25,980 nucleotides of DNA from a virus. The stretch covers positions 1 to 25,980 of IMG/VR virus record IMGVR_UViG_3300048033_000646; one strand, given 5' to 3'. Shown in pieces: positions 3,272-17,667 of this stretch (the first letter of the stretch is position 1; each line of letters opens with the position of its first letter). The notes under the pieces were generated by a model. It saw only the letters and a list, made by a program, of their open reading frames with translations, was not told the DNA's origin and did no database searches. The position numbers were made by a program, and so were the translations under genes.

Positions 3272-3987
3272 TGAGTTTACGAGAAGGTGATTTAAAAGAT
3301 TTAATTGAAGATATTTTTGAGATTGATTCATTCCAGTCAAAAATGGGCGACGACAAAAATATTATTACTATTAGTTTTAATGTAAACGGGCACGAACCAG
3401 CCAACGACTTAGCAAATTTTCTTGAAAAAGGATACGATTTTATTTTAGATGCTGATGTCACAAGTGGAGAGCAAAGTGATGGTAAGTATAAAGTATTTGT
3501 TGAAATTGAAAGACAGCGTAGTGCAACTGACGAAATTACCGAAATGCTAGATGGTGTAAGTAAACTATCGAACATTAGTAATTTTAAATTTAGGTATTAC
3601 AAAGACTTTAAAAGTAAACCAGCAACAACTGAAGAAATGGCTCAGTCAATACCTTTAGACCCTGACGGTTATATAGTTATTGCTAATGAGTCAAATTTAA
3701 ATAATTTTAAAAATTTCTTCAACAAAAGTTTTTTAGATGAAGTTGACATGGTTAATGAAACTTTAGTTATTAAGAAGAAATGGGCTGACCCACTTGCATT
3801 TAATTTTATTGAGTTTGGCAATACATTAGAAATTCACGAGTCGATAGACGGTAAATTTGATCTAATGGAAAGCTATCCAGAGATACTCTTTCTTACCAAA
3901 TATATTGGTGACTATAACATAAGTAAGTATGGAGACAAACTTGTCTTTGAAAATGAGGACAAAGCCCTAGTTGTTAAAAGGATATAA
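3271..3987 (+). CDS. Hypothetical late protein, 238 aa
   Basis: Not recognised. An acidic, soluble-looking 238-residue protein with no signal peptide or membrane segment. Alternating hydrophobic stretches (NIITISFNVNG, KYKVFVEIERQ, NFKFRYYKDFK) suggest beta strands in the first half. The second half (DGYIVIANESNLNNFKNFF, then LFLTKYIGDYNISKYGDKLVFE) looks like a second alpha/beta unit. It starts on the stop codon of the preceding gene, and the endolysin follows one base after its TAA, so it belongs to the same late transcription unit. The partner-like arrangement with the 181-aa gene suggests the two work together; a function cannot be given. Confidence 0.75.
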   Translation: MSLREGDLKDLIEDIFEIDSFQSKMGDDKNIITISFNVNGHEPANDLANFLEKGYDFILDADVTSGEQSDGKYKVFVEIERQRSATDEITEMLDGVSKLSNISNFKFRYYKDFKSKPATTEEMAQSIPLDPDGYIVIANESNLNNFKNFFNKSFLDEVDMVNETLVIKKKWADPLAFNFIEFGNTLEIHESIDGKFDLMESYPEILFLTKYIGDYNISKYGDKLVFENEDKALVVKRI

Positions 3988-3988
3988 A

Positions 3989-4864
3989 ATGAGTTTTGAA
4001 TTTGATTTTACTAAAGAACATCTAGCTGAAATTATCTCAGCAGATGCAGATGATTGGTATGACGCATTATGCGAGCTACTACCTAAATACGGAATTACTA
4101 CAGAACGTAGAGTCGCACACTTCCTAAGTCAGTGCGCTCACGAATCAGGCGGCTTTAAACGCCTAGAAGAAAACTTAAACTATTCAGCAAAAGCACTACG
4201 TGCAGTGTTTGGACGTTATTTTGGTGATGCTCCAAAGCGTGATGCAGACGAGTATCACAGACAGCCAGAAATGATTGCAAACTATGTGTACATGGATGAA
4301 TTCCGTAAGTACAAAATGGGCAATACAGAAGAAGGTGACGGCTGGAGATTCCGCGGTCGTGGTCTAAAGCAGTTGACTGGACGTGAAAACTATACACGTT
4401 TTGGTGCTAGTGTTGACATGACAGCAGAAGAAGCAGCAGAATATGTAGCAACTCCAGCAGGTGCTATTGAGTCAGCTTGCTGGTTCTGGGATGCAAACAA
4501 CCTAAATGACATTGCAGATGGTGATGATGTTAAGCGTATGACTAAGAAGATCAACGGCGGAAGCATTGGTCTTGAAGATCGTAAGAAGCGTTACATGCAT
4601 GCAATGGAAGTACTAGGCATGGATGCTGAAGATTTAGCAGCAGACGACGATGACATCGAAGATATCATTGATGATATCGGTGTACTACGCAAAGGTTCTA
4701 AAGGCGAAGGCGTTAAGATTATGCAAGAAGCATTAGGTGTTAGTGCAGACGGCGACTTTGGGCCTGGCACAGAACGTGCGTTAAAAGAGTGGCAGGCAGC
4801 AAACGGTCTAACAGCAGACGGTATTGCAGGACCTGCAACATTTGCGAAACTATTGGACGACTAA
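3989..4864 (+). CDS. Endolysin: GH19 chitinase-like muramidase with C-terminal PG-binding domain
   Basis: Cleaves peptidoglycan at lysis. Residues 1-215 form a GH19 (chitinase/lysozyme-like) domain: QCAHESGGFKRLEENLNYSA (48-67) holds the likely catalytic Glu52 and Glu61, and GDGWRFRGRGLKQLTGRENY (116-135) is the family signature. An Asp-rich linker (217-230) leads to a PG_binding_1 domain (about 231-291) with the paired repeats DGDFGPGTERALKEWQ and DGIAGPATF. The protein has 291 residues and no signal peptide, so it needs a holin or other export. The start is ATG 3989 behind AAAAGGA; the in-frame TTG at 3971 would overlap the upstream gene. Many GH19 phage endolysins carry the binding domain at the N-terminus; here it is C-terminal. 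The spanin genes follow directly. Confidence 0.9.
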   Translation: MSFEFDFTKEHLAEIISADADDWYDALCELLPKYGITTERRVAHFLSQCAHESGGFKRLEENLNYSAKALRAVFGRYFGDAPKRDADEYHRQPEMIANYVYMDEFRKYKMGNTEEGDGWRFRGRGLKQLTGRENYTRFGASVDMTAEEAAEYVATPAGAIESACWFWDANNLNDIADGDDVKRMTKKINGGSIGLEDRKKRYMHAMEVLGMDAEDLAADDDDIEDIIDDIGVLRKGSKGEGVKIMQEALGVSADGDFGPGTERALKEWQAANGLTADGIAGPATFAKLLDD

Positions 4865-4865
4865 T

Positions 4866-5327
4866 ATGGGTATGAAGCTAGCAGCAGTAATGGCAATTAT
4901 GATGTTAGCACTATGCGGTGCTGGCTATATGTATTATCAAGATACACAAGAACGCATTGCTATCCTAAACGCAAACAATGCAAAGTTAGAAACAGCAGTA
5001 GCTATAAGTGAAGAGGCTGTTTCGACTTTGCAAGCCGATTTCGCAAAGGCAAACGCAGAGTTAAGTCGTGTTAATCAAGAGTTTGCTGCTATACGTGCGC
5101 AAAATAACGTACTAGCAGATAAACTTGCGAAACACGACCTAGCTGTGTTAGGCGCAGGGAAACCTGGACTAGTAGAAAGACTAGTAAACAAAGGCACGAT
5201 TAATGCAGGTAGATGTTTTGAATTACTTGCAGGTGCAGAACTAACTGATAAAGAAAAGGAAGCAAAAGATGGGAAAGCGTTTAATAACGAATGTCCTTGG
5301 CTTTGGCCTGGTCCTAGCACTCCTTAG
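4866..5327 (+). CDS. Inner-membrane spanin (i-spanin, Rz-like)
   Basis: A 153-residue protein with one N-terminal membrane helix (AAVMAIMMLALCGAGYMYY, about residues 5-23), then a long heptad-like coiled coil (about 28-95), then a periplasmic tail with two cysteines (GRCFELL and NNECPWL). This is the standard i-spanin plan: an inner-membrane anchor that spans the periplasm to meet the outer spanin and fuse the membranes after endolysin action. The start is ATG 4866 or ATG 4872; neither has a strong Shine-Dalgarno, and coupling to the endolysin stop two bases earlier is likely. The last 59 bases overlap the outer spanin gene in another frame, an arrangement known for spanin pairs. Confidence 0.82.
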   Translation: MGMKLAAVMAIMMLALCGAGYMYYQDTQERIAILNANNAKLETAVAISEEAVSTLQADFAKANAELSRVNQEFAAIRAQNNVLADKLAKHDLAVLGAGKPGLVERLVNKGTINAGRCFELLAGAELTDKEKEAKDGKAFNNECPWLWPGPSTP

Positions 5328-5733
5328 TGGATGCACAAGCATGCCTCAGAAGATTGAGGTTAGTGCTAAACCTGTAGACAAACCTGAGCTTGTACTTCCT
5401 AATCCAGAAGCACTCAACATGAAAGATGTTACGTGGGTACTTCTTACTCCAGAAAACTTTGAAGAAAAAGTAGCTGAACTATCTAAGAACGGCAGACCAG
5501 TAGTGTTCTTTGCACTTACTGACGAAGGCTACGAAAATCTTAGTATAAACTTTTCTAGTATACGTGCATACATTCAACAACAGCAAGCAATTATTGTTGC
5601 ATACGAAAACTACTACAAGAACGCAAACGAAGCACTCGACGCTGCTAATAGCAATATAGAAGGTGCAGCAGCAGAAGTAGAAGCACAACAGTCTGTAGAA
5701 GAAGATAACAACCCTTTTTGGAAAGTGTTCTAA
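5269..5733 (+). CDS. Outer-membrane lipoprotein spanin (o-spanin, Rz1-like)
   Basis: A 154-residue protein with a lipoprotein signal peptide: basic start MGKR, hydrophobic core, and lipobox LLSGC with the acylated Cys at residue 22. The mature part contains VTWVLLTPENFEEKV and a helix YENLSINFSSIRAYIQQQQA followed by IIVAYENYYKNANEA, resembling the family of phage outer spanins encoded beside T4-like i-spanins. It ends in an acidic stretch and NPFWKVF. It starts inside the i-spanin gene in a different frame (59-base overlap). Together with the endolysin and i-spanin it completes the outer-membrane disruption step of lysis, so the host is a Gram-negative bacterium. Confidence 0.85.
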   Translation: MGKRLITNVLGFGLVLALLSGCTSMPQKIEVSAKPVDKPELVLPNPEALNMKDVTWVLLTPENFEEKVAELSKNGRPVVFFALTDEGYENLSINFSSIRAYIQQQQAIIVAYENYYKNANEALDAANSNIEGAAAEVEAQQSVEEDNNPFWKVF

Positions 5734-5777: not shown

Positions 5778-5785
5778 GATAAATA
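5778..5785 (+). promoter_or_regulatory. T4-type late promoter, GATAAATA
   Basis: GATAAATA followed by C. With T4 geometry, +1 falls at about 5791, inside the left arm of the 5788-5812 inverted repeat, leaving a leader of about 19 bases before ATG 5810. Confidence 0.65.
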
Positions 5786-5787
5786 CT

Positions 5788-5812
5788 CATAGTAAAGAGA
5801 GGGTTTACTATG
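5788..5812 (+). promoter_or_regulatory. Hairpin with RBS in loop and start codon in stem
   Basis: A perfect 9-bp inverted repeat: CATAGTAAA (5788-5796), loop GAGAGGG (5797-5803), TTTACTATG (5804-5812). The loop is the Shine-Dalgarno sequence of the gene at 5810 and the right arm ends in its ATG. A transcript reading through from upstream can form the full stem, while one starting at the late promoter (+1 about 5791) loses the outer three pairs, so translation could depend on which promoter made the message. Confidence 0.65.
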
Positions 5813-6091
5813 GAAACAATTCAAGCAATGTTCGGCGACACCTTGTGGATCTATACCGCTATTGCAGGTAGTGTATTAGGTGCGGCATTTTTATTCTGGT
5901 TTAAAGACACAAGAATAGCAACGTGGGGCGTACAAAAATTTGATGCTACATTAGAATACCTTGCAATACGTTGGGGCTGGACGTGGCTACAAAATGATCC
6001 TAATGCTTGGCGTGTAAAGTATCCTAAAATAACAAACAAAATTGACGAGCTTGAGGCTCGTATTGCTAAACTAGAGGGAAAATCTAAATGA
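5810..6091 (+). CDS. One-TM protein with coiled-coil tail, holin candidate
   Basis: A 93-residue protein: a short N-terminus (METIQAMFGDTL), one strong membrane helix (WIYTAIAGSVLGAAFLFWF, 13-31), an aromatic amphipathic middle (TWGVQKFDATLEYLAIRWGW, 38-57) and a C-terminal coiled coil (KITNKIDELEARIAKLEGK). The size, single N-terminal helix, charged coiled tail and position just after the spanins fit a class III-like holin or holin accessory, but no family signature is certain. It has its own late promoter and a start-codon hairpin. The stop overlaps the next ATG. The alternative is an unrelated small inner-membrane virion or lysis-timing protein. Confidence 0.72.
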   Translation: METIQAMFGDTLWIYTAIAGSVLGAAFLFWFKDTRIATWGVQKFDATLEYLAIRWGWTWLQNDPNAWRVKYPKITNKIDELEARIAKLEGKSK

Positions 6092-6354
6092 AAAAAACTT
6101 TAATTGCAATGATGCTTATAGCATCTACTACTGCATTTGCTGATGAAAGCAAACAGTATAAATGCGGCGGTCAAGTATATGATCCTGCTGAATATGAATG
6201 TGTAGGAGACAACACACTAAAGGAATTGGGCAGTAAATCTGCTTGGGATGCAATGGGCGAAGGTGTTAATCAAATAGGCGGCGCCATTTCAGACGGAGCA
6301 TCTGCCGCAGGTAATGCTATTTCAGGCGCAGCAAAGAAATTAAAATTCTGGTAA
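6088..6354 (+). CDS. Secreted small protein with CG-Y-Y-C motif and Gly/Ala-rich tail
   Basis: An 88-residue protein with a clear Sec signal peptide (MKKTLIAMMLIASTTAFA, then DES), so a mature periplasmic product of about 70 residues. The mature N-terminus contains YKCGGQVYDPAEYECVGDN, with two cysteines 13 residues apart. The spacing resembles the short CBM52-type carbohydrate-binding motif known from fungal glucanases, but the trailing Cys of that motif is absent. Residues about 55-88 are Gly/Ala-rich and amphipathic (GGAISDGASAAGNAISGAAK), ending KKLKFW, reminiscent of membrane-active peptides. ATGA overlap with the holin candidate and location in the lysis block suggest a role in envelope contact or lysis. 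Family assignment is tentative. Confidence 0.7.
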   Translation: MKKTLIAMMLIASTTAFADESKQYKCGGQVYDPAEYECVGDNTLKELGSKSAWDAMGEGVNQIGGAISDGASAAGNAISGAAKKLKFW

Positions 6355-6372
6355 TTGAGAGGGGAAAGACTA

Positions 6373-6708
6373 ATGACAGAAGAAACTAAAACAATCGACG
6401 CAGCAGCAGTCGAGGGCATGGACGCAAACGGTGACGGACACATTTCAAAAGAAGAAATGAATATGCACTTAGAATTTAAACGTAAAGCACTAGAAGATGC
6501 TGATGCACAACGTGATGCAATGCGCAGCATGACTTGGTTTGCACTATTTGGTATGCTACTATACCCATTTACAATCGTGCTAACTAGCTTCTTAGGTCTA
6601 GACGTAGCAGCTGGCATTGTAGGTGATATTGCTCCTACATACTTTGTTGCAATTTCTGCACTAGTAGCAGCATTCTTTGGTGCTGACGCAGTTAAGAATA
6701 AAAAGTAA
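6373..6708 (+). CDS. EF-hand protein with two membrane helices, holin-like
   Basis: A 111-residue protein. Residues 16-27, DANGDGHISKEE, are a complete canonical 12-residue EF-hand loop (ligand positions D, N, D, S and the final E), predicted to bind Ca2+. A charged helix (NMHLEFKRKALEDADAQRDA) follows, then two hydrophobic segments (MTWFALFGMLLYPFTIVLTS and YFVAISALVAAFFGADAV) and a basic end, NKK. The N-in, two-TM, basic-tail plan is that of class II holins. The start is ATG 6373 behind GAGAGGGG; the TTG at 6355 would destroy that spacing. It sits at the end of the lysis block, before the dnaJ late promoter. The EF-hand loop is plain in the sequence; a calcium-responsive holin is inference. 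Confidence 0.78.
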   Translation: MTEETKTIDAAAVEGMDANGDGHISKEEMNMHLEFKRKALEDADAQRDAMRSMTWFALFGMLLYPFTIVLTSFLGLDVAAGIVGDIAPTYFVAISALVAAFFGADAVKNKK

Positions 6709-6751: not shown

Positions 6752-7555
6752 ATGGACTATTACTCTATTCTAGGCGTACCTAAAAACGCTTCTTCAGAAC
6801 AGTTAAAGAAAGCATACAAGAAACAAAGTATGCAACACCATCCCGACAGGGGCGGTGACGAAGCACAATTCAAAAAAGTTAACGAAGCATATAGTACACT
6901 AAAAGATCCTGCTAAACGTCAGCAGTATGATAACCCTCAACCACAATATAATTTTAATACAAGTAATATGGGAGGACATCCGTTTGATGACCTGTTTGCG
7001 CAGTTTGGATTTAGACAAAACCAAAGACAGCAACCACGCAATCCGGATATAACTATTGCAGTAGAAATGACTATAAAAGAACTTTTTATAGGTAAAAAAG
7101 TGTTAGCAGTATATAGATTACGAAACGGACAAGAACAACCAGTTGACTTAGATATTCCACCAGGGGTATCTAACGGTGATAAGATAAGATATCCTGGCTT
7201 AGGAGAAAATATAATACCCGGACCAAGAGGAAATTTATTTGTTGTAATTAATATATTACCTAATAAAGAGTTTGACATCCGCGGAAACGATGTGTATACT
7301 ATTAAAAAAGTCAACTGTTTACAGATGATAGTAGGAACACGTATATTAATAACTACACCCGACGATAGAAACATAGAACTAACTATACCACCAGGCACAA
7401 AAAACGGAACAACTTTTAGTATGAATGGTTATGGGATCCCAAATACACGAACAAGACGAAAAGGAAATATGCTTATAAAAATTGAAGCTGAAATACCTAA
7501 AAATTTAAGTACTACACAAATAGATCAAATTAGAGGAATAATAGATGGATCTTAA
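6752..7555 (+). CDS. dnaJ: DnaJ-like co-chaperone (type II J-protein)
   Basis: A 267-residue J-domain protein. The J domain is at 1-60 (DYYSILGVPKNASSEQLKKA) with the essential HPD at 30-32. A short Phe/Gly/Asn/Gln-rich linker (about 62-92) follows, then two beta-rich C-terminal substrate-binding domains (about 94-175 and 176-262) marked by VDLDIPPGVSNGDKIRYPGLG and IELTIPPGTKNGTTF. There is no zinc-finger region, so it is like CbpA or type II DnaJ rather than classical DnaJ. It would stimulate the host Hsp70 (DnaK), possibly for virion assembly. The start is fixed by the J domain beginning at residue 2. It overlaps the deformylase gene by 11 bases. Confidence 0.92.
   Translation: MDYYSILGVPKNASSEQLKKAYKKQSMQHHPDRGGDEAQFKKVNEAYSTLKDPAKRQQYDNPQPQYNFNTSNMGGHPFDDLFAQFGFRQNQRQQPRNPDITIAVEMTIKELFIGKKVLAVYRLRNGQEQPVDLDIPPGVSNGDKIRYPGLGENIIPGPRGNLFVVINILPNKEFDIRGNDVYTIKKVNCLQMIVGTRILITTPDDRNIELTIPPGTKNGTTFSMNGYGIPNTRTRRKGNMLIKIEAEIPKNLSTTQIDQIRGIIDGS
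7272..7300 (+). promoter_or_regulatory. Possible sigma-70 promoter inside dnaJ
   Basis: TTGACA (7272-7277), 17-base spacer, TATACT (7295-7300; one mismatch). It lies within dnaJ, about 245 bases before the deformylase gene, and could give early expression of def and clp. TTTGAC also encodes Phe-Asp, so chance is possible. Confidence 0.3.
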
Positions 7556-8054
7556 ACTTGTAAAATCACCCGATCCTTGGTTAGAAAAACAACTAGATCC
7601 GTTTAGCTTTAATTTTCTAAATGCTAAAGAAGTAGCTAAACAAATGATAGAATTAATGCACAAAGAAGGTGGCATTGGTCTAAGTGCTAACCAAGTAGCA
7701 TTAAATGCACAGATTTTCGTTATGCGGCCTTATCTAGACAATAACAAAGAAGCGTTTGCTATTATTAATCCTGAAATATTACAAGTATCAGATGATCAAG
7801 AAATAATGCCCGAAGGGTGTTTAAGTCATCCAGATTTGTTTTTAACAGTAAAACGACCAAAATTTGTTACAGCAAAATATCTTGACACTGACGCAAAAGA
7901 ATGTATAATAACATTACAAGACATTGATGCAAGATGTTTTTTACACGAATATGATCACTTACACGGCATTGAATTTACTGACAGAGTTAGTAAACTTAAA
8001 CTTGATCGCGCAAAGAAAAAGCAAAATAAAATGAGGAAAAAGCAAAATGGTTGA
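7545..8054 (+). CDS. def: Peptide deformylase
   Basis: Removes the N-formyl group from new polypeptides. The product is 169 residues, a typical PDF length. All three metal-site motifs are present: GIGLSANQ (43-50), EGCLS (90-94, metal ligand C92) and HEYDHLHG (134-141, ligands H134 and H138 with catalytic E135). The C-terminal tail is strongly basic (KKKQNKMRKKQNG), unlike the short phage PDFs that lack the last helix. GAGGA precedes the ATG, which lies inside the end of dnaJ. The gene overlaps clp by 8 bases. Phage PDFs are known in marine phages; placement between a co-chaperone and an unfoldase makes a protein-maturation module here. Confidence 0.95.
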   Translation: MDLKLVKSPDPWLEKQLDPFSFNFLNAKEVAKQMIELMHKEGGIGLSANQVALNAQIFVMRPYLDNNKEAFAIINPEILQVSDDQEIMPEGCLSHPDLFLTVKRPKFVTAKYLDTDAKECIITLQDIDARCFLHEYDHLHGIEFTDRVSKLKLDRAKKKQNKMRKKQNG

Positions 8055-10287
8055 ACCAAGTAAAGAATTACAACTAGTATTTGAAAAAAGTATTAAAGAT
8101 GCTAAAAAGTTACAGCACGAATACGTAACTGTAGAACATCTCCTCTTTTCTATGCTGTGTTCTGAAAATTTTTATAATCTAGTTAAAGGGTTTGGTGCCG
8201 ACGTTGATTATTTAAAAACAAATCTCGAACATTATCTAAAAAATAATTTAGAAGAAATTAAAATTTCTGATCCAAAGTATAAGCCTAAAAAGACACAAGC
8301 AGTAGAGCGTGTACTTAATCGTGCATTTACACAAACACTTTTTGCAGGACGTTCCGAAATAGATTTAAGTGATGTACTACTAAGTATGCTTAGTGAAAAG
8401 AAAAGCCATGCTGTATACTTTTGTGAAAAATCGAATATTAACAAAGACTCGTTTTCGGAGTATGTTAGTTCGGAAATGGACGAACTTATTGAAGACGAAG
8501 AAATGTCAGGTGCTGCACAAAAAGCTCTTAATGCATTTACCACTAATCTTAACATTGAAGCGAAGAGAAATAAAATTGATCCTATCATTGGGCGATCAGA
8601 GGAACTTGAAGGTATTGCACTAGCTTTAGGTCGTCGCAGTAAAAATAATGTAATCTTAGTAGGCGATCCTGGTGTAGGTAAAACAGCAATTGCCGAAGGC
8701 ATGGCCTATAACATTGTTAATAATAATGTACCAGAATTCCTAAAAGAATATGAAGTCTTTATGCTAGACATCGGTGCAATGCTTGCTGGTTCAAAGTACC
8801 GTGGTGATTTTGAAGAACGCTTTAAACTTGTAATGGCAGGTCTTAAGAGTAAAGGCAATACTATTATGTTTATTGACGAAGCACATATGATGAATGGTGC
8901 TGGCGCAGGCGGACAAAGTAATTCAAATGATCTTGCTAACATGCTTAAACCTGCACTTACAAAAGGTAATATTAAAGTAGTAGCATCAACTACATGGGAC
9001 GAATATCGCAAGTACTTTGAAAAGGATCGTGCGCTGATGCGTAGATTCCAACGTGTAACAGTAGACGAGCCTACACCGGAAGTAACACGAGACATCTTAC
9101 GTGGAATTAAGAAATACTACGAAGATTACCACAAAACTGTTATTACTGAAGAAGCAATTGAAAGTGCTGTTAAACTTAGCATTAAATATCAATCAGATAA
9201 AAAGTTGCCAGACAAAGCAATTGATTTAATTGACTTAGCATGTGCTCGTTTTAAAATTACTCAAGAAACAGATAAAATTGTTACAGCAGAAAAAGTTGAG
9301 TTTGAGCTTTCGAAAGTAGTTAAATTGCCTCCAGAACAAATTTCTCAACGCGAAACTGAGAAACTAATAAATCTTGAAAAGAATCTTAAAGGTAATGTGT
9401 TTGGTCAAGACGAAGCAATTGAAGGCATTGTTGACAAAATTCTTGTTAGCCAAGCAGGTCTAAAACCAGACGACAAACCAATTGGGTCATTTGTATTTAT
9501 GGGACCAACTGGAACTGGTAAAACAGAAACTGCAAAACAACTTGCAAGTCAATTAGGTGTAGAACTTGTACGCTTTGATATGAGCGAATATCAAGAAAAA
9601 CATAGTGTTGCTAAACTAATTGGTAGCCCTCCAGGATACGTAGGTCACGAAGAAAACGGCGGCTTACTAATTACAAAATTGCAGGAAAATCCTAACTGTG
9701 TATTATTGCTAGACGAGATTGAAAAGGCTCACCCAGATGTTTCGCAGATCTTGCTACAAGTAATGGACAACGGTAAGCTAACAGGCTCAAATGGTAAAGA
9801 AGCTGATGCACGTAACTGTGTACTAATTCTCACAACTAATCTAGGTGCCCAGTCAGCAGAGAAAAATACAGTTGGATTCGGTGATGACTTTGATAATAAC
9901 GATTACGAAGATGCCGAACTTAAAAAATTCTTTGCTCCAGAGTTTAGAAACAGACTAGATGGTGTAATTACATTTGCTAAACTAGGCAAAGAAGTTATGC
10001 TAAAAATTGTTGGCAAGTTCCTTGTTGAGCTTAAAGACATGGTTAAAGATAAAAATGTAGTAATTAGTGTTACAGACGAAACATTAGATGCACTTGTAGA
10101 CAAAGGATTTGACCCTAAAAATGGTGCTCGTCCATTGCAGCGTGTAATTGATAAAGAAATTAAACGTCCGTTGTCTAGAGAGTTACTGTTTGGTGATCTA
10201 AAAAATGGTGGAACATTAAATATTGACTTTAAAGACGATAAGTTTATTCTAATCTGCAAGTCGGAAGAAATTGTTGAAAACGTTTGA
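8047..10287 (+). CDS. clpA: Two-ring AAA+ Clp unfoldase (ClpA/ClpC-like)
   Basis: A 746-residue Hsp100 protein, about the size of ClpA. It has a Clp_N repeat domain (1-145), then ring D1 with Walker A GDPGVGKT (206-213), Walker B IMFIDEAH and pore loop KYRGDFEER (250-258), then ring D2 with Walker A GPTGTGKT (486-493), Walker B LLLDEIEK (553-560), pore loop GYVGHEE (530-536) and sensor-2 GARPLQR. No long middle (M) domain is seen between the rings, so it is not a ClpB disaggregase. VGF at 609-611 sits where ClpA has IGL and ClpC has VGF, the tripeptide that docks on ClpP. No clpP is in the window, so it may recruit host ClpP. Both ATPase sites look intact. Confidence 0.9.
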   Translation: MVEPSKELQLVFEKSIKDAKKLQHEYVTVEHLLFSMLCSENFYNLVKGFGADVDYLKTNLEHYLKNNLEEIKISDPKYKPKKTQAVERVLNRAFTQTLFAGRSEIDLSDVLLSMLSEKKSHAVYFCEKSNINKDSFSEYVSSEMDELIEDEEMSGAAQKALNAFTTNLNIEAKRNKIDPIIGRSEELEGIALALGRRSKNNVILVGDPGVGKTAIAEGMAYNIVNNNVPEFLKEYEVFMLDIGAMLAGSKYRGDFEERFKLVMAGLKSKGNTIMFIDEAHMMNGAGAGGQSNSNDLANMLKPALTKGNIKVVASTTWDEYRKYFEKDRALMRRFQRVTVDEPTPEVTRDILRGIKKYYEDYHKTVITEEAIESAVKLSIKYQSDKKLPDKAIDLIDLACARFKITQETDKIVTAEKVEFELSKVVKLPPEQISQRETEKLINLEKNLKGNVFGQDEAIEGIVDKILVSQAGLKPDDKPIGSFVFMGPTGTGKTETAKQLASQLGVELVRFDMSEYQEKHSVAKLIGSPPGYVGHEENGGLLITKLQENPNCVLLLDEIEKAHPDVSQILLQVMDNGKLTGSNGKEADARNCVLILTTNLGAQSAEKNTVGFGDDFDNNDYEDAELKKFFAPEFRNRLDGVITFAKLGKEVMLKIVGKFLVELKDMVKDKNVVISVTDETLDALVDKGFDPKNGARPLQRVIDKEIKRPLSRELLFGDLKNGGTLNIDFKDDKFILICKSEEIVENV

Positions 10288-15066: not shown

Positions 15067-17667
15067 ATGCGTGAAATATCAAGTACGTTAATTCAACAAC
15101 TAGTAACTGACATGCCTACGCCTACAAATGGTGGAGAGATTGCTGCGGCAGTACAGATAGTTGCTAATCGACTACAAGATACTCGTGCTAATCAAAGAGA
15201 GCTTAATGTTAAAGATATAGAAACTACTGCTGCACAATTAATTCAAAGAGCCGGACTCACGGGAGGAATTTATCAAGATCCCTTTGCATCAGACACTCAA
15301 GGCAATGACGGAATAGTTATCATAATAACAGAGTCTGGCCAAGACGGTTATGCAGCTTACGATAATTCAGTCTTTGAAGAAGAAAGCTATGCGGAAAATT
15401 TAGAAACAATATTATCTTCTACTGCAAGACGAGGGTTTCTGCCAAATTGGTTTCAAAGTACTTGGCTACAGTTTGAAGACGAAGGATCATTAAAATATAG
15501 AATTGCTAATGCAGCAGTTAATTTTAGTGACATTGAGAACGCAGTGATACCTGGCGAAACAGATAGCGAAACAAGTGACGAAACAGATAGCGAAACAGGT
15601 GACGAAACAGATAGCGAAACAGGTGACGAGCAAAGAAGCAATCCAACAGGTAACGTTTTACCTCATTTAAACGGATTTGTTGCTGCTGAAAAAGGAGGCC
15701 TGCGAAATGATCGTGACGAAGTTGAAGCCATTGAAGAACTGCAAGAATTTTTAGTTTCTTTAGGATTAAATGTTGGTAATAACGGTGTTGACGGTAAGTA
15801 TGGTCCTAGAACAACAGAAGCAGTACAGGCATTCCAAAGAACACAAATTGACCTAGAACCAGATGGAGACGCAGGTCGATATACAATTAGCAGTATGACT
15901 GATGTAGTAACTGACTTTAATCGTATGCAAGAGTTATTAAATATACTAGAAGAACAAGCGTTAGGCGACAGTGTAGTTCCTTTTCAATATAAAAGTAGTA
16001 TAGCTAAATTATTAGAAAGAAATTTAAATCAAGAAGAGGTTGACGAACTTGAAAGACTTTTACAAAATAATAGACAGTTTATAGATACGTTTCCAGAATT
16101 TAAAAATGATGTAGTTGAAAGAGCAACAACTACTATTCAGAATGGTGGTTTGGTTACTACTAGTGACGAACAAGGTGGCGTAACAAGTGACGAAACAGAT
16201 AGCGAAACAAGTGACGAACAAGGTGGCGTAACAAGTGACGAAACAAGTGGCGTAACAAGTGACGAACAAGGTGGCGTAACAAGTGACGAAACAGATGGCG
16301 AAACAAGTGACGAACAAGGTGGCGTAACAAGTGACGAAACAGGTAGCGAGTCTATCAGTGGAACAGACAACGGTAAGTCCTGGGTTATTAATCAAAACGA
16401 TAATCAAGTAATAGTTACTCCTTCAGATACTGATATTTCTTTAGTATTAAATACACTTGAAGAAGTTGATACAACTAGACAAAGATATGGAGCAGATTTA
16501 GTAGAAGAACGCGATGATGGTCAAAGTGCCTTTATAAATTATTCTTCTTGGCCAAATTTATTAGATGCTTGGATACCGTTAGTAGACGGAGTGCGCACAC
16601 CTGAAGAAGTTGATAATTTTTATAATAACTTTTTTGGCATTGATCAACAAACAGTACCAGAAATGTTGCCACTAAGTGACGAAACCACAGGAGTGTTACG
16701 TCTTGGATTGCAAGGGGCAGATGTTACAGAGGTATATGTTACTAGACAACCAAATACTGACGAGTATACATTTATGCCAGTTAGAGATGGACGTATTCAA
16801 CCTAACGAATCTATTATGAAAACCTTAGACGAGTTAACATCAATAAATAGGAATATTCACGCAATATGTAGCCAGGCACTACTAAGAACAGGCGCTTCTA
16901 GGTCATTAGACGATCTAGGAGATAGTCGAAGACTGGCTCGGCCTACATATTCTACCACAGGTCCGCTCGACGAAGTATTTGCTGCTAATGCTAAACTATA
17001 TTTCCGAACTGATCTAAGCAGACTAGAACAGGATAGACTATTTGAGGCAACTAGAACTAATATAGCTAATACTGAATTATCACAAGAAGTTTTAGAAGAT
17101 TTATTTAATAATGTTGTTTTGTTCCAAAGAGTGTTACGTGGACAACAAGTAACTAGACCATTCCATACAATTGTAATACCAAGAATTCGATCAGATGGTC
17201 CTGATGACTCTCAGTACGATCAACGTGTAGCAGAACGTGAAGAAATAATCGAAGCAGCTACTAGCTTTGTTAACGAGATTAGAGATCTTAAAGATAGAAC
17301 AGATGATTCACAACGATCTGAATACCGTACAGCTTTACAACAATATACTAGAGAAGAACAAGATATAATAATAGATATATGGGAAGTTGTTGATCAAAAC
17401 TTTGGATCAGATGACGCAAAGCTATTATCCGCAATAGCACAAATTACAAGTCCAGAACAATGGGAAAGAATATATAGTGGTTATCAAATAGTGTCAGGCT
17501 CTAGGACCGGACCATGGATTGATATACAAAACCAATGGACAATTAGTCAAGCAACAGAAACTCGTATTAGAAATCATTTTATACGTCATGGCATAATTCA
17601 AATAGGTAACACTAGTAACGAATCATTAGATATTTTATCATTGTACAAGAAAATAAGTAGGTTGTAA
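15067..17667 (+). CDS. Large late protein with PG-binding domain and DE/T/S tandem repeats, 866 aa
   Basis: An 866-residue acidic protein. Residues 1-160 are an unassigned N-terminal domain. Residues 163-186 are three 8-residue DETDSETG-like repeats. Residues about 216-278 form a PG_binding_1-like domain (IEELQEFLVSLGLNV, then GVDGKYGPRTTEAVQAFQRT). Residues 366-428 are a second repeat block (SDEQGGVT and SDET units). Residues about 440-866 are a large unassigned region, mixed alpha/beta then helical. There is no signal peptide or membrane helix. The binding domain suggests contact with host peptidoglycan, so an ejected, internal or tail-associated virion protein is plausible. AAGGATT precedes the ATG. 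The stop overlaps the next ATG (TAATG). No catalytic motif was recognised. Confidence 0.8.
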   Translation: MREISSTLIQQLVTDMPTPTNGGEIAAAVQIVANRLQDTRANQRELNVKDIETTAAQLIQRAGLTGGIYQDPFASDTQGNDGIVIIITESGQDGYAAYDNSVFEEESYAENLETILSSTARRGFLPNWFQSTWLQFEDEGSLKYRIANAAVNFSDIENAVIPGETDSETSDETDSETGDETDSETGDEQRSNPTGNVLPHLNGFVAAEKGGLRNDRDEVEAIEELQEFLVSLGLNVGNNGVDGKYGPRTTEAVQAFQRTQIDLEPDGDAGRYTISSMTDVVTDFNRMQELLNILEEQALGDSVVPFQYKSSIAKLLERNLNQEEVDELERLLQNNRQFIDTFPEFKNDVVERATTTIQNGGLVTTSDEQGGVTSDETDSETSDEQGGVTSDETSGVTSDEQGGVTSDETDGETSDEQGGVTSDETGSESISGTDNGKSWVINQNDNQVIVTPSDTDISLVLNTLEEVDTTRQRYGADLVEERDDGQSAFINYSSWPNLLDAWIPLVDGVRTPEEVDNFYNNFFGIDQQTVPEMLPLSDETTGVLRLGLQGADVTEVYVTRQPNTDEYTFMPVRDGRIQPNESIMKTLDELTSINRNIHAICSQALLRTGASRSLDDLGDSRRLARPTYSTTGPLDEVFAANAKLYFRTDLSRLEQDRLFEATRTNIANTELSQEVLEDLFNNVVLFQRVLRGQQVTRPFHTIVIPRIRSDGPDDSQYDQRVAEREEIIEAATSFVNEIRDLKDRTDDSQRSEYRTALQQYTREEQDIIIDIWEVVDQNFGSDDAKLLSAIAQITSPEQWERIYSGYQIVSGSRTGPWIDIQNQWTISQATETRIRNHFIRHGIIQIGNTSNESLDILSLYKKISRL
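15553..15624 (+). repeat. Three tandem 24-base coding repeats
   Basis: Three near-identical 24-base units encoding (D/G)ETDSET(S/G) at 15553, 15577 and 15601, differing at only a few bases. In-frame multiples of three let copy number vary without a frameshift. They encode an acidic, probably disordered linker before the peptidoglycan-binding domain. Confidence 0.9.
16162..16350 (+). repeat. Composite tandem repeat of 12- and 24-base coding units
   Basis: About 190 bases built from AGTGACGAA-type units encoding SDEQGGVT, SDETDSET, SDETSGVT and SDETDGET, sharing motifs with the 15553 block. SDEQGGVT appears four times. The near-identity of units at the DNA level points to recent expansion. It encodes an acidic linker and is an obvious site for copy-number change. 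Confidence 0.9.

Follow-up and report, generated by a model that had tools for sequence, protein, structure and literature searches.

Does a small membrane protein that carries an EF-hand loop, encoded in the lysis block of a virus, take part in host lysis, and may calcium, acting through this protein, influence the time at which the host cell bursts? Holins set the time of lysis, and their trigger is still debated; to our knowledge, ion sensing is no part of the accepted models of holin triggering. The locus lies in a 25,980-nt stretch of viral DNA (IMG/VR record IMGVR_UViG_3300048033_000646, positions 1 to 25,980), referred to here as the window. In a preliminary description of this sequence, the protein was proposed to be a calcium-sensing holin or lysis-timing protein, the state of which could be changed by membrane damage or by entry of sea-water calcium.

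The EF-hand ORF and its surrounding genes

The ORF at 6373-6708 on the plus strand encodes a protein of 111 aa with an EF-hand loop and two transmembrane (TM) segments, and 320 distinct homologues of it were found; the phages that carry this family are aquatic and abundant. Its coordinates, reading frame and start were as described previously, with the ATG at 6373, the stop codon at 6706-6708 and a ribosome-binding site, GAGAGGGG, at 6357-6364. The loop, DANGDGHISKEE (residues 17-28; 6421-6456), satisfied the EF-hand loop rule at each ligand position and was followed by a charged helix, two hydrophobic segments (residues 56-74 and 86-104) and a basic tail, KNKK (6694-6705), so that all elements listed in the preliminary description were present.

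Three lysis genes were identified upstream on the same strand, again in agreement with that description. They encode a GH19-type endolysin with a peptidoglycan-binding domain (3971-4864; PHROG 181 endolysin, E 3e-73; PF01471, E 5e-13), an Rz-like i-spanin with one TM segment and a coiled coil (4866-5327; PHROG 739, E 4e-11) and an o-spanin lipoprotein with the lipobox LSGC (5269-5733; PHROG 812, E 4e-11), the o-spanin gene overlapping that of the i-spanin. Two further plus-strand genes, which have to be added to the earlier account, separate the spanins from the EF-hand ORF. The product of the first (5810-6091) has one TM segment and a coiled-coil-like tail, and such a gene occurs near the EF-hand gene for 14 of the 119 distinct proteins of the window type. 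The start of the second (6088-6354) overlaps the stop of the first; it encodes a small predicted secreted protein with a signal-peptide-like N-terminus and an amphipathic basic C-terminus (GNAISGAAKKLKFW), for which no family match was found and which is possibly a further lysis or envelope component. A motif scan detected a T4-type late-promoter-like site, GATAAATA, at 5778-5785 on the plus strand, which may drive the gene group from 5810 to 6708.

Directly 3′ of the EF-hand gene, a phage DnaJ, a peptide deformylase and a Clp-type AAA+ ATPase were encoded consecutively (6752-10287). Farther downstream, positions 15067-17667 encode a large protein with tandem acidic repeats like SDETDSETSDEQGGVTSDET and a peptidoglycan-binding-like stretch.

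Conservation of the EF-hand loop

The strict EF-loop pattern occurred once in the 9,684 aa of the window ORFs, with 0.035 occurrences expected from shuffled sequences. Six scans of viral contigs, together with tblastn searches against cultured phages, yielded homologues at 429 loci, corresponding to 320 distinct proteins, and the loop was kept in all 320. A loop arising by chance is ruled out by this retention together with the shuffling result. Among the homologues, loop position 1 was D, position 3 N or D, position 5 D or N, position 6 G, position 8 I, V or L, and position 12 E, while position 9 was S, T or D in nearly all. The features that define an EF-hand loop, namely oxygen ligands at positions 1, 3, 5, 9 and 12, glycine at 6 and a hydrophobic residue at 8, were thus found throughout, at position 9 nearly always.

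In an alignment of 29 sequences with less than 75% identity, only Met1, D17, G22 and E28 were invariant; in an alignment of 69 sequences, the invariant columns were D17, G22 and E28. No other feature of the family is as conserved as the loop, with its positions 1, 6 and 12 invariant. Loss of loop ligands in close homologues had been named beforehand as an observation that would speak against the calcium-sensing proposal; as these residues are invariant across the family, no such loss has occurred. The codons at these sites varied freely (Asp1, GAT 231 and GAC 128; Glu12, GAA 252 and GAG 107; Gly6, all four), indicating that it is the protein sequence that is conserved. Selection bias is limited, the majority of the search peptides falling outside the EF loop. 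In the scan for CRP-345-type sequences, which gave a complete list, the loop was present at every one of 48 loci. No loop-less homologue was found among cultured phages with a query from which the loop had been omitted; this search returned the same phages and chance-level matches of E 0.9 or worse.

The window protein alone matched Pfam EF-hand_5 with E 6.7e-5 and 22.6 bits, the curated cut-off being 25.9, and 68 of 69 family members matched this entry at E up to 0.5. Comparison of the family profile with the PDB gave calmodulin-type EF-hand proteins over residues 7-49, with E values from 1e-9 to 1e-7 (best 1.1e-9). By these matches, the loop is part of a genuine EF-hand rather than a look-alike, and homology to proven EF-hand proteins is detectable at the profile level. 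The loop would be expected to bind calcium. Unpaired EF-hands frequently have a low affinity for Ca2+.

Membrane hairpin and predicted structure

Two hydrophobic segments were found in 315 of the 320 distinct proteins. The loop between them was acidic or neutral on average, and the C-terminal tail was net positive in every subgroup, with a mean charge of +1.5 to +3.5 by subgroup. This charge distribution suggests an N-in/C-in topology, which would place the KNKK tail in the cytoplasm and the EF-hand on the cytoplasmic side, at the base of TM1.

An AlphaFold2 model built with 69 sequences (mean pLDDT 80) displayed a short entering helix (residues 10-13), the loop, a helix of residues 26-73 running into TM1, a tight turn and a second helix of residues 77-110. 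According to this model and the hydropathy profile, residues 26-73 (6448-6591) would form one continuous helix comprising the exiting helix of the EF-hand, a charged cytoplasmic stretch and TM1, with a block pLDDT of about 77-91. The second membrane helix was assigned by hydropathy to residues 86-104 (6628-6684). The succession of entering helix, loop and exiting helix was seen in the models, at low confidence at the N-terminus, and the model of a distant relative of the DC31 type followed this plan too, with less confidence (pLDDT 71). In Foldseek searches, the best PDB match reached only E 7.7, and the viral matches consisted of one relative with 69% identity. The best VIA-align match, Entamoeba CaBP1, had a Z score of 4.8, too low for reliance. 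Past weak EF-hand matches, these fold searches were uninformative.

Lysis cassettes in non-T4 lineages

Association of the EF-hand gene with lysis genes was strong in four lineages other than the T4-like phages. The gene order was EF-hand gene, Rz and M15 endolysin in the DC31 type, and EF-hand gene, M15 endolysin and u-spanin in the CRP-9 type, in which the u-spanins had a lipobox and a C-terminal TM segment in 61 of 61 distinct sequences. In the CRP-345 type, the EF-hand gene was followed either by a u-spanin and an endolysin (M15) or by a c50/3TM holin and a hydrolase. In CRP-810, the EF-hand gene (gp33) was followed by gp32, the product of which matched PF11351, GTA_holin_3TM (E 2.5e-20), and by a gene for a GH108 endolysin. 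The EF-hand gene stays constant while the hydrolase family switches (M15, GH19, GH108).

A hydrolase or spanin gene was located within 2.5 kb for all DC31-type (60/60) and CRP-9-type (49/49) and for 21 of 24 CRP-345-type distinct proteins. The next lysis gene overlapped the EF-hand gene or began at most 60 bases from its stop codon in 48 of 60 DC31-type, 35 of 49 CRP-9-type and 21 of 21 CRP-345-type cases. In CRP-9-type and CRP-345-type genomes, the EF-hand gene is on the terminase side, where its neighbours are endolysin or spanin genes and not tail genes. The cassette of EF-hand gene, M15 endolysin and u-spanin contained no other recognised holin, leaving the EF-hand gene in the remaining slot. 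In most of the lineages examined, the EF-hand gene occupies the place expected of a holin gene. Since each type represents one lineage, these observations amount to a handful of independent lysis associations and not to hundreds.

The DC31-type phages include freshwater phages of Limnohabitans, and these retain the loop. Sea-water calcium, invoked in the preliminary description, is therefore not essential.

PHROG 32327, a C-terminally membrane-anchored family (the gene at position -1 in locus L216, DC31 gp113 and CRP-9 gp60), was encoded 1-2 genes before the EF-hand gene at most DC31-type and many CRP-345-type loci. CRP-207 gp73 (L083:3292-3873), annotated as a putative lysozyme, had no hydrolase match in Pfam or PHROGs and was for this reason left out of the lysis-gene counts; it has one TM segment and a coiled coil and is similar to genes found close to the EF-hand gene at T4-like loci.

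Location of the gene in T4-like phages

HTVC008M, Melnitz and the majority of their relatives carry the EF-hand gene between gp51 (baseplate hub assembly) and the gene for the tape measure, at a long distance from the endolysin and spanin genes. A location between these two genes or beside one of them was found for 54 of 66 distinct proteins of the HTVC008M type and for 28 of 119 of the window type. At 40 of the 74 window-type loci with full flanks, neither recognised lysis genes nor tail genes adjoin the EF-hand gene. Lysis genes are scattered in both phages. HTVC008M has the EF-hand gene at 16 kb, whereas its spanin-like gene is at 117 kb and its endolysin genes are at 141-144 kb; the EF-hand gene of Melnitz, at 59.5 kb, is likewise apart from the spanins (24 kb), a GH108-type gene (38 kb) and a Hydrolase_2-type gene (42 kb). 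Occurrence away from lysis genes had been named in the preliminary description as an observation that would speak against its proposal; the gene is in the lysis cassette in the four non-T4 lineages, in which it usually overlaps the next lysis gene, but occurs away from lysis genes in many T4-like phages. A second copy, one with the tail genes and one with the lysis genes of each T4-like genome, was considered and refuted, as the gene was always present once (28/28 genomes or records searched, complete ones included).

In phage T4, the holin gene t lies by the tail-fibre genes, away from the endolysin gene e. Because T4 also separates its holin gene from its endolysin gene, the location by gp51 in T4-like phages is compatible with a holin. 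The same location would also suit a role of the protein in the tail or in DNA entry.

In the report on Melnitz, no holin was named, curli pores were suggested as an analogue of a pinholin, and Melnitz was stated to lack lysin-like genes besides gp67 (PMC9004378). Melnitz nonetheless has the Hydrolase_2-type gene, which encodes a signal peptide (L448:3214-3741; about 42.2 kb in the record), and its spanin pair is at L447:4254-5408 (about 23.8-24.9 kb). DUF1353 proteins, named tail assembly chaperone in HTVC008M, are encoded next to the EF-hand gene or the spanin genes in several T4-like phages (for example, L047:5336-5929, L385:5334-5744 and L432:16428-17033) and are possibly linked to lysis.

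Search for known holin families

No supported match of the EF-hand protein to a named holin family was found in PHROGs and Pfam; holins being diverse, such a match is not a strict requirement for a holin. Phage_holin_3_6 was matched by 2 of 69 members, with a best E of 0.018. Membership in PF11351 was rejected, this family being outside the 25 most matched by members and the window protein giving no match to it; among ten genomes, PF11351 was found only in CRP-810, as the separate gene mentioned above. PHROG 27150 was matched by 50 of 69 members at E up to 0.5 (best E 5e-11) and is probably the existing, unnamed home of the family.

A further 44 small membrane proteins, taken from HTVC008M, Melnitz, CRP-9, DC31, CRP-207, CRP-345, CRP-13 and the window, were compared with PHROGs and Pfam, and no named holin family was matched by any of them. 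Unnamed two-TM proteins are present in several of these genomes, and for this reason the EF-hand protein is not claimed as the only holin candidate. A cellular origin was also considered and rejected: one contig scan was empty, and a second gave nine contigs in mixed-taxonomy metagenome-assembled bins (four in one Rhodobacteraceae bin), which are probably binned phage. No EF-hand holin was found in the published literature searched, subscription papers being outside its coverage; the preliminary description had likewise known of none.

Replacement of a membrane-gene block in CRP-9

Phages CRP-9 and CRP-13 have the same host strain and a region in common, with orthologous flanks formed by CRP-9 gp73 and CRP-13 gp74 (71% identity) and by the endolysins (72%). 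Between these flanks, CRP-13 carries gp73 (small TM protein), gp72 (c50 type) and gp71, and CRP-9 carries the EF-hand gene, gp72, alone. In CRP-9, the EF-hand gene replaces the membrane-gene block of CRP-13.

In HMO-2011, PA11 and CRP-13, the gene for the c50-type protein (PHROG 2524) has a lysozyme or endolysin gene close to it. Some relatives carry the depositor labels holin or DUF3154, the former name of PF11351. TeaA of phage ICP1, linked to DUF3154 by remote homology, is an experimentally supported holin (PMC7182436). Neither the c50-type proteins nor TeaA reached PF11351 in Pfam searches, so that c50 is itself a putative holin; CRP-13 gp73 is another holin candidate of that phage.

The hairpin profile of the EF-hand family aligned to c50 with an hhalign score of 30.4 (E 1.8e-4), the best of 60 column shuffles scoring 17.9. 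This similarity came mainly from the T4-like and CRP-345 subgroups and was absent with DC31 or CRP-9 profiles alone; it is therefore regarded as weak. The PF11351 protein of CRP-810 displayed no similarity to the hairpin in profile comparison, and homology to TeaA was rejected, no similarity being detected.

Possible role in lysis and alternative explanations

The reading we favour, put forward tentatively and at somewhat less than an even chance, assigns the protein to lysis, either as the holin itself or as an indispensable component of it. It would be a two-TM hairpin with both termini cytoplasmic and with a single EF-hand at the base of TM1, where Ca2+ would control or stabilise the hairpin. 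In favour of this reading are the conservation of the loop, the two hydrophobic segments with their charge pattern, the single copy, the cassette positions and the replacement in CRP-9; counting against it are the location by gp51 in T4-like phages, the second holin-type genes of CRP-810 and of many CRP-345-type loci, the lack of a match to named holin families, the weak hairpin similarity and the low Ca2+ affinity frequent in unpaired EF-hands. Late in infection, such a protein would accumulate in the inner membrane with its EF-hand in the low-calcium cytosol and mostly calcium-free. A first leak, depolarisation or envelope damage would admit calcium, and Ca2+ would fill the loop and stiffen the single helix running from it into TM1. 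Stiffening could shift the protein toward, or away from, a lesion-forming oligomer and so render triggering cooperative and all-or-none; the endolysin would then escape, and the spanins would complete lysis. The more specific proposal, a family of calcium-gated holins in which the EF-hand would translate the initial entry of calcium into cooperative formation of holes, is rather unlikely. If true, it would provide marine and freshwater phages with a calcium-triggered lysis clock and would supply the holin of pelagimyophages and methylophages.

The main alternative is a partner of the holin, that is, an antiholin or calcium-responsive triggering regulator that delays or times a separate holin and makes no hole itself. 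Since some loci carry a separate holin, it is a serious rival, although unlikely, and it is favoured where a second holin gene is adjacent. This is the case in CRP-810, where the EF-hand gene is directly upstream of the PF11351 holin and the GH108 endolysin, and for 15 of 24 CRP-345-type distinct proteins, for which a 3TM holin or a c50-type protein is encoded close by, in many cases immediately downstream; phages commonly encode holin and antiholin side by side (PMC7182436). However, no such second gene was found near the DC31-type (60) or CRP-9-type (49) distinct proteins, and the small TM proteins examined in CRP-9, DC31, HTVC008M and Melnitz included no named holin. Next in order is a structural metal site, in which Ca2+ (or Mg2+) would, in a holin-like protein, fix the TM1 helix at its N-terminal end or clamp a dimer without sensing. 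The equal retention of the loop in marine phages and in the freshwater Limnohabitans phages (DC31), together with its direct fusion to a long helix in the models, would fit such a site, but the predicted cytosolic position would see little Ca2+ before lysis and the invariance across very diverged members exceeds the need of a generic helix cap, making this explanation improbable.

Two further alternatives place the function outside lysis. A tail-linked or DNA-entry membrane protein, which would aid the tape measure or the genome across the host inner membrane in a calcium-dependent manner, would account for the location by gp51 and the tape measure gene in the HTVC008M-type and part of the window-type phages, and calcium-dependent DNA entry is classical for some phages. 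Such a protein is nevertheless very unlikely, since the CRP-9-type and CRP-345-type copies, on the terminase side, have an endolysin or a spanin gene and not tail genes beside them, the window copy belongs to a lysis block, and two TM segments are unusual in a small virion protein. Another membrane activity, such as superinfection exclusion or host membrane takeover, placed with lysis genes by chance gene order, would be compatible with the 40 window-type loci near neither lysis nor tail genes; the repeated association with GH19, GH108, M15 and Hydrolase_2 hydrolases and with several spanin types, and the usual overlap of the genes in non-T4 lineages, make it the least probable of these explanations.

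If the EF-hand protein is a holin, it provides a concrete candidate for pelagimyophages and OM43 phages and would annotate hundreds of viral contigs at present labelled hypothetical. With a widespread phage family that carries an invariant calcium site on a membrane hairpin, the idea that calcium serves as a lysis trigger would become directly testable by point mutations, and calcium may through this protein influence the time of host-cell burst.

Comparison with known systems

The EF-hand protein resembles calmodulin and Entamoeba CaBP in its 12-residue loop and flanking helix, and differs from them in having a single EF-hand instead of paired ones and an exiting helix that is predicted to be continuous with a membrane helix. 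The PHROG 27150 entry gives no function, EF-hand or lysis role, unlike the reading presented here. The c50-type proteins (HMO-2011 gp58, CRP-13 gp72) share the cassette slot and the weak hairpin similarity, but neither they nor the PF11351 proteins have an EF-hand. With PBSX XhlA/XhlB, the likeness is in gene arrangement: DC31-type cassettes have an XhlA-like one-TM protein upstream (PHROG 1193, E 0.003, a weak similarity), near the two-TM EF-hand protein. We know of no EF-hand in XhlB.

Class II holins, represented by S21 of phage 21, have two TM segments and an N-in/C-in topology; they differ in that the EF-hand protein has a long N-terminal EF-hand and helix and lacks a sequence match to named holins. 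They are similar to it in size, two-TM hairpin, basic tail and single copy. A gene position beside the endolysin and spanins is shared with the EF-hand protein of the DC31, CRP-9, CRP-345, CRP-810 and window types, but not with that of most HTVC008M-type loci.
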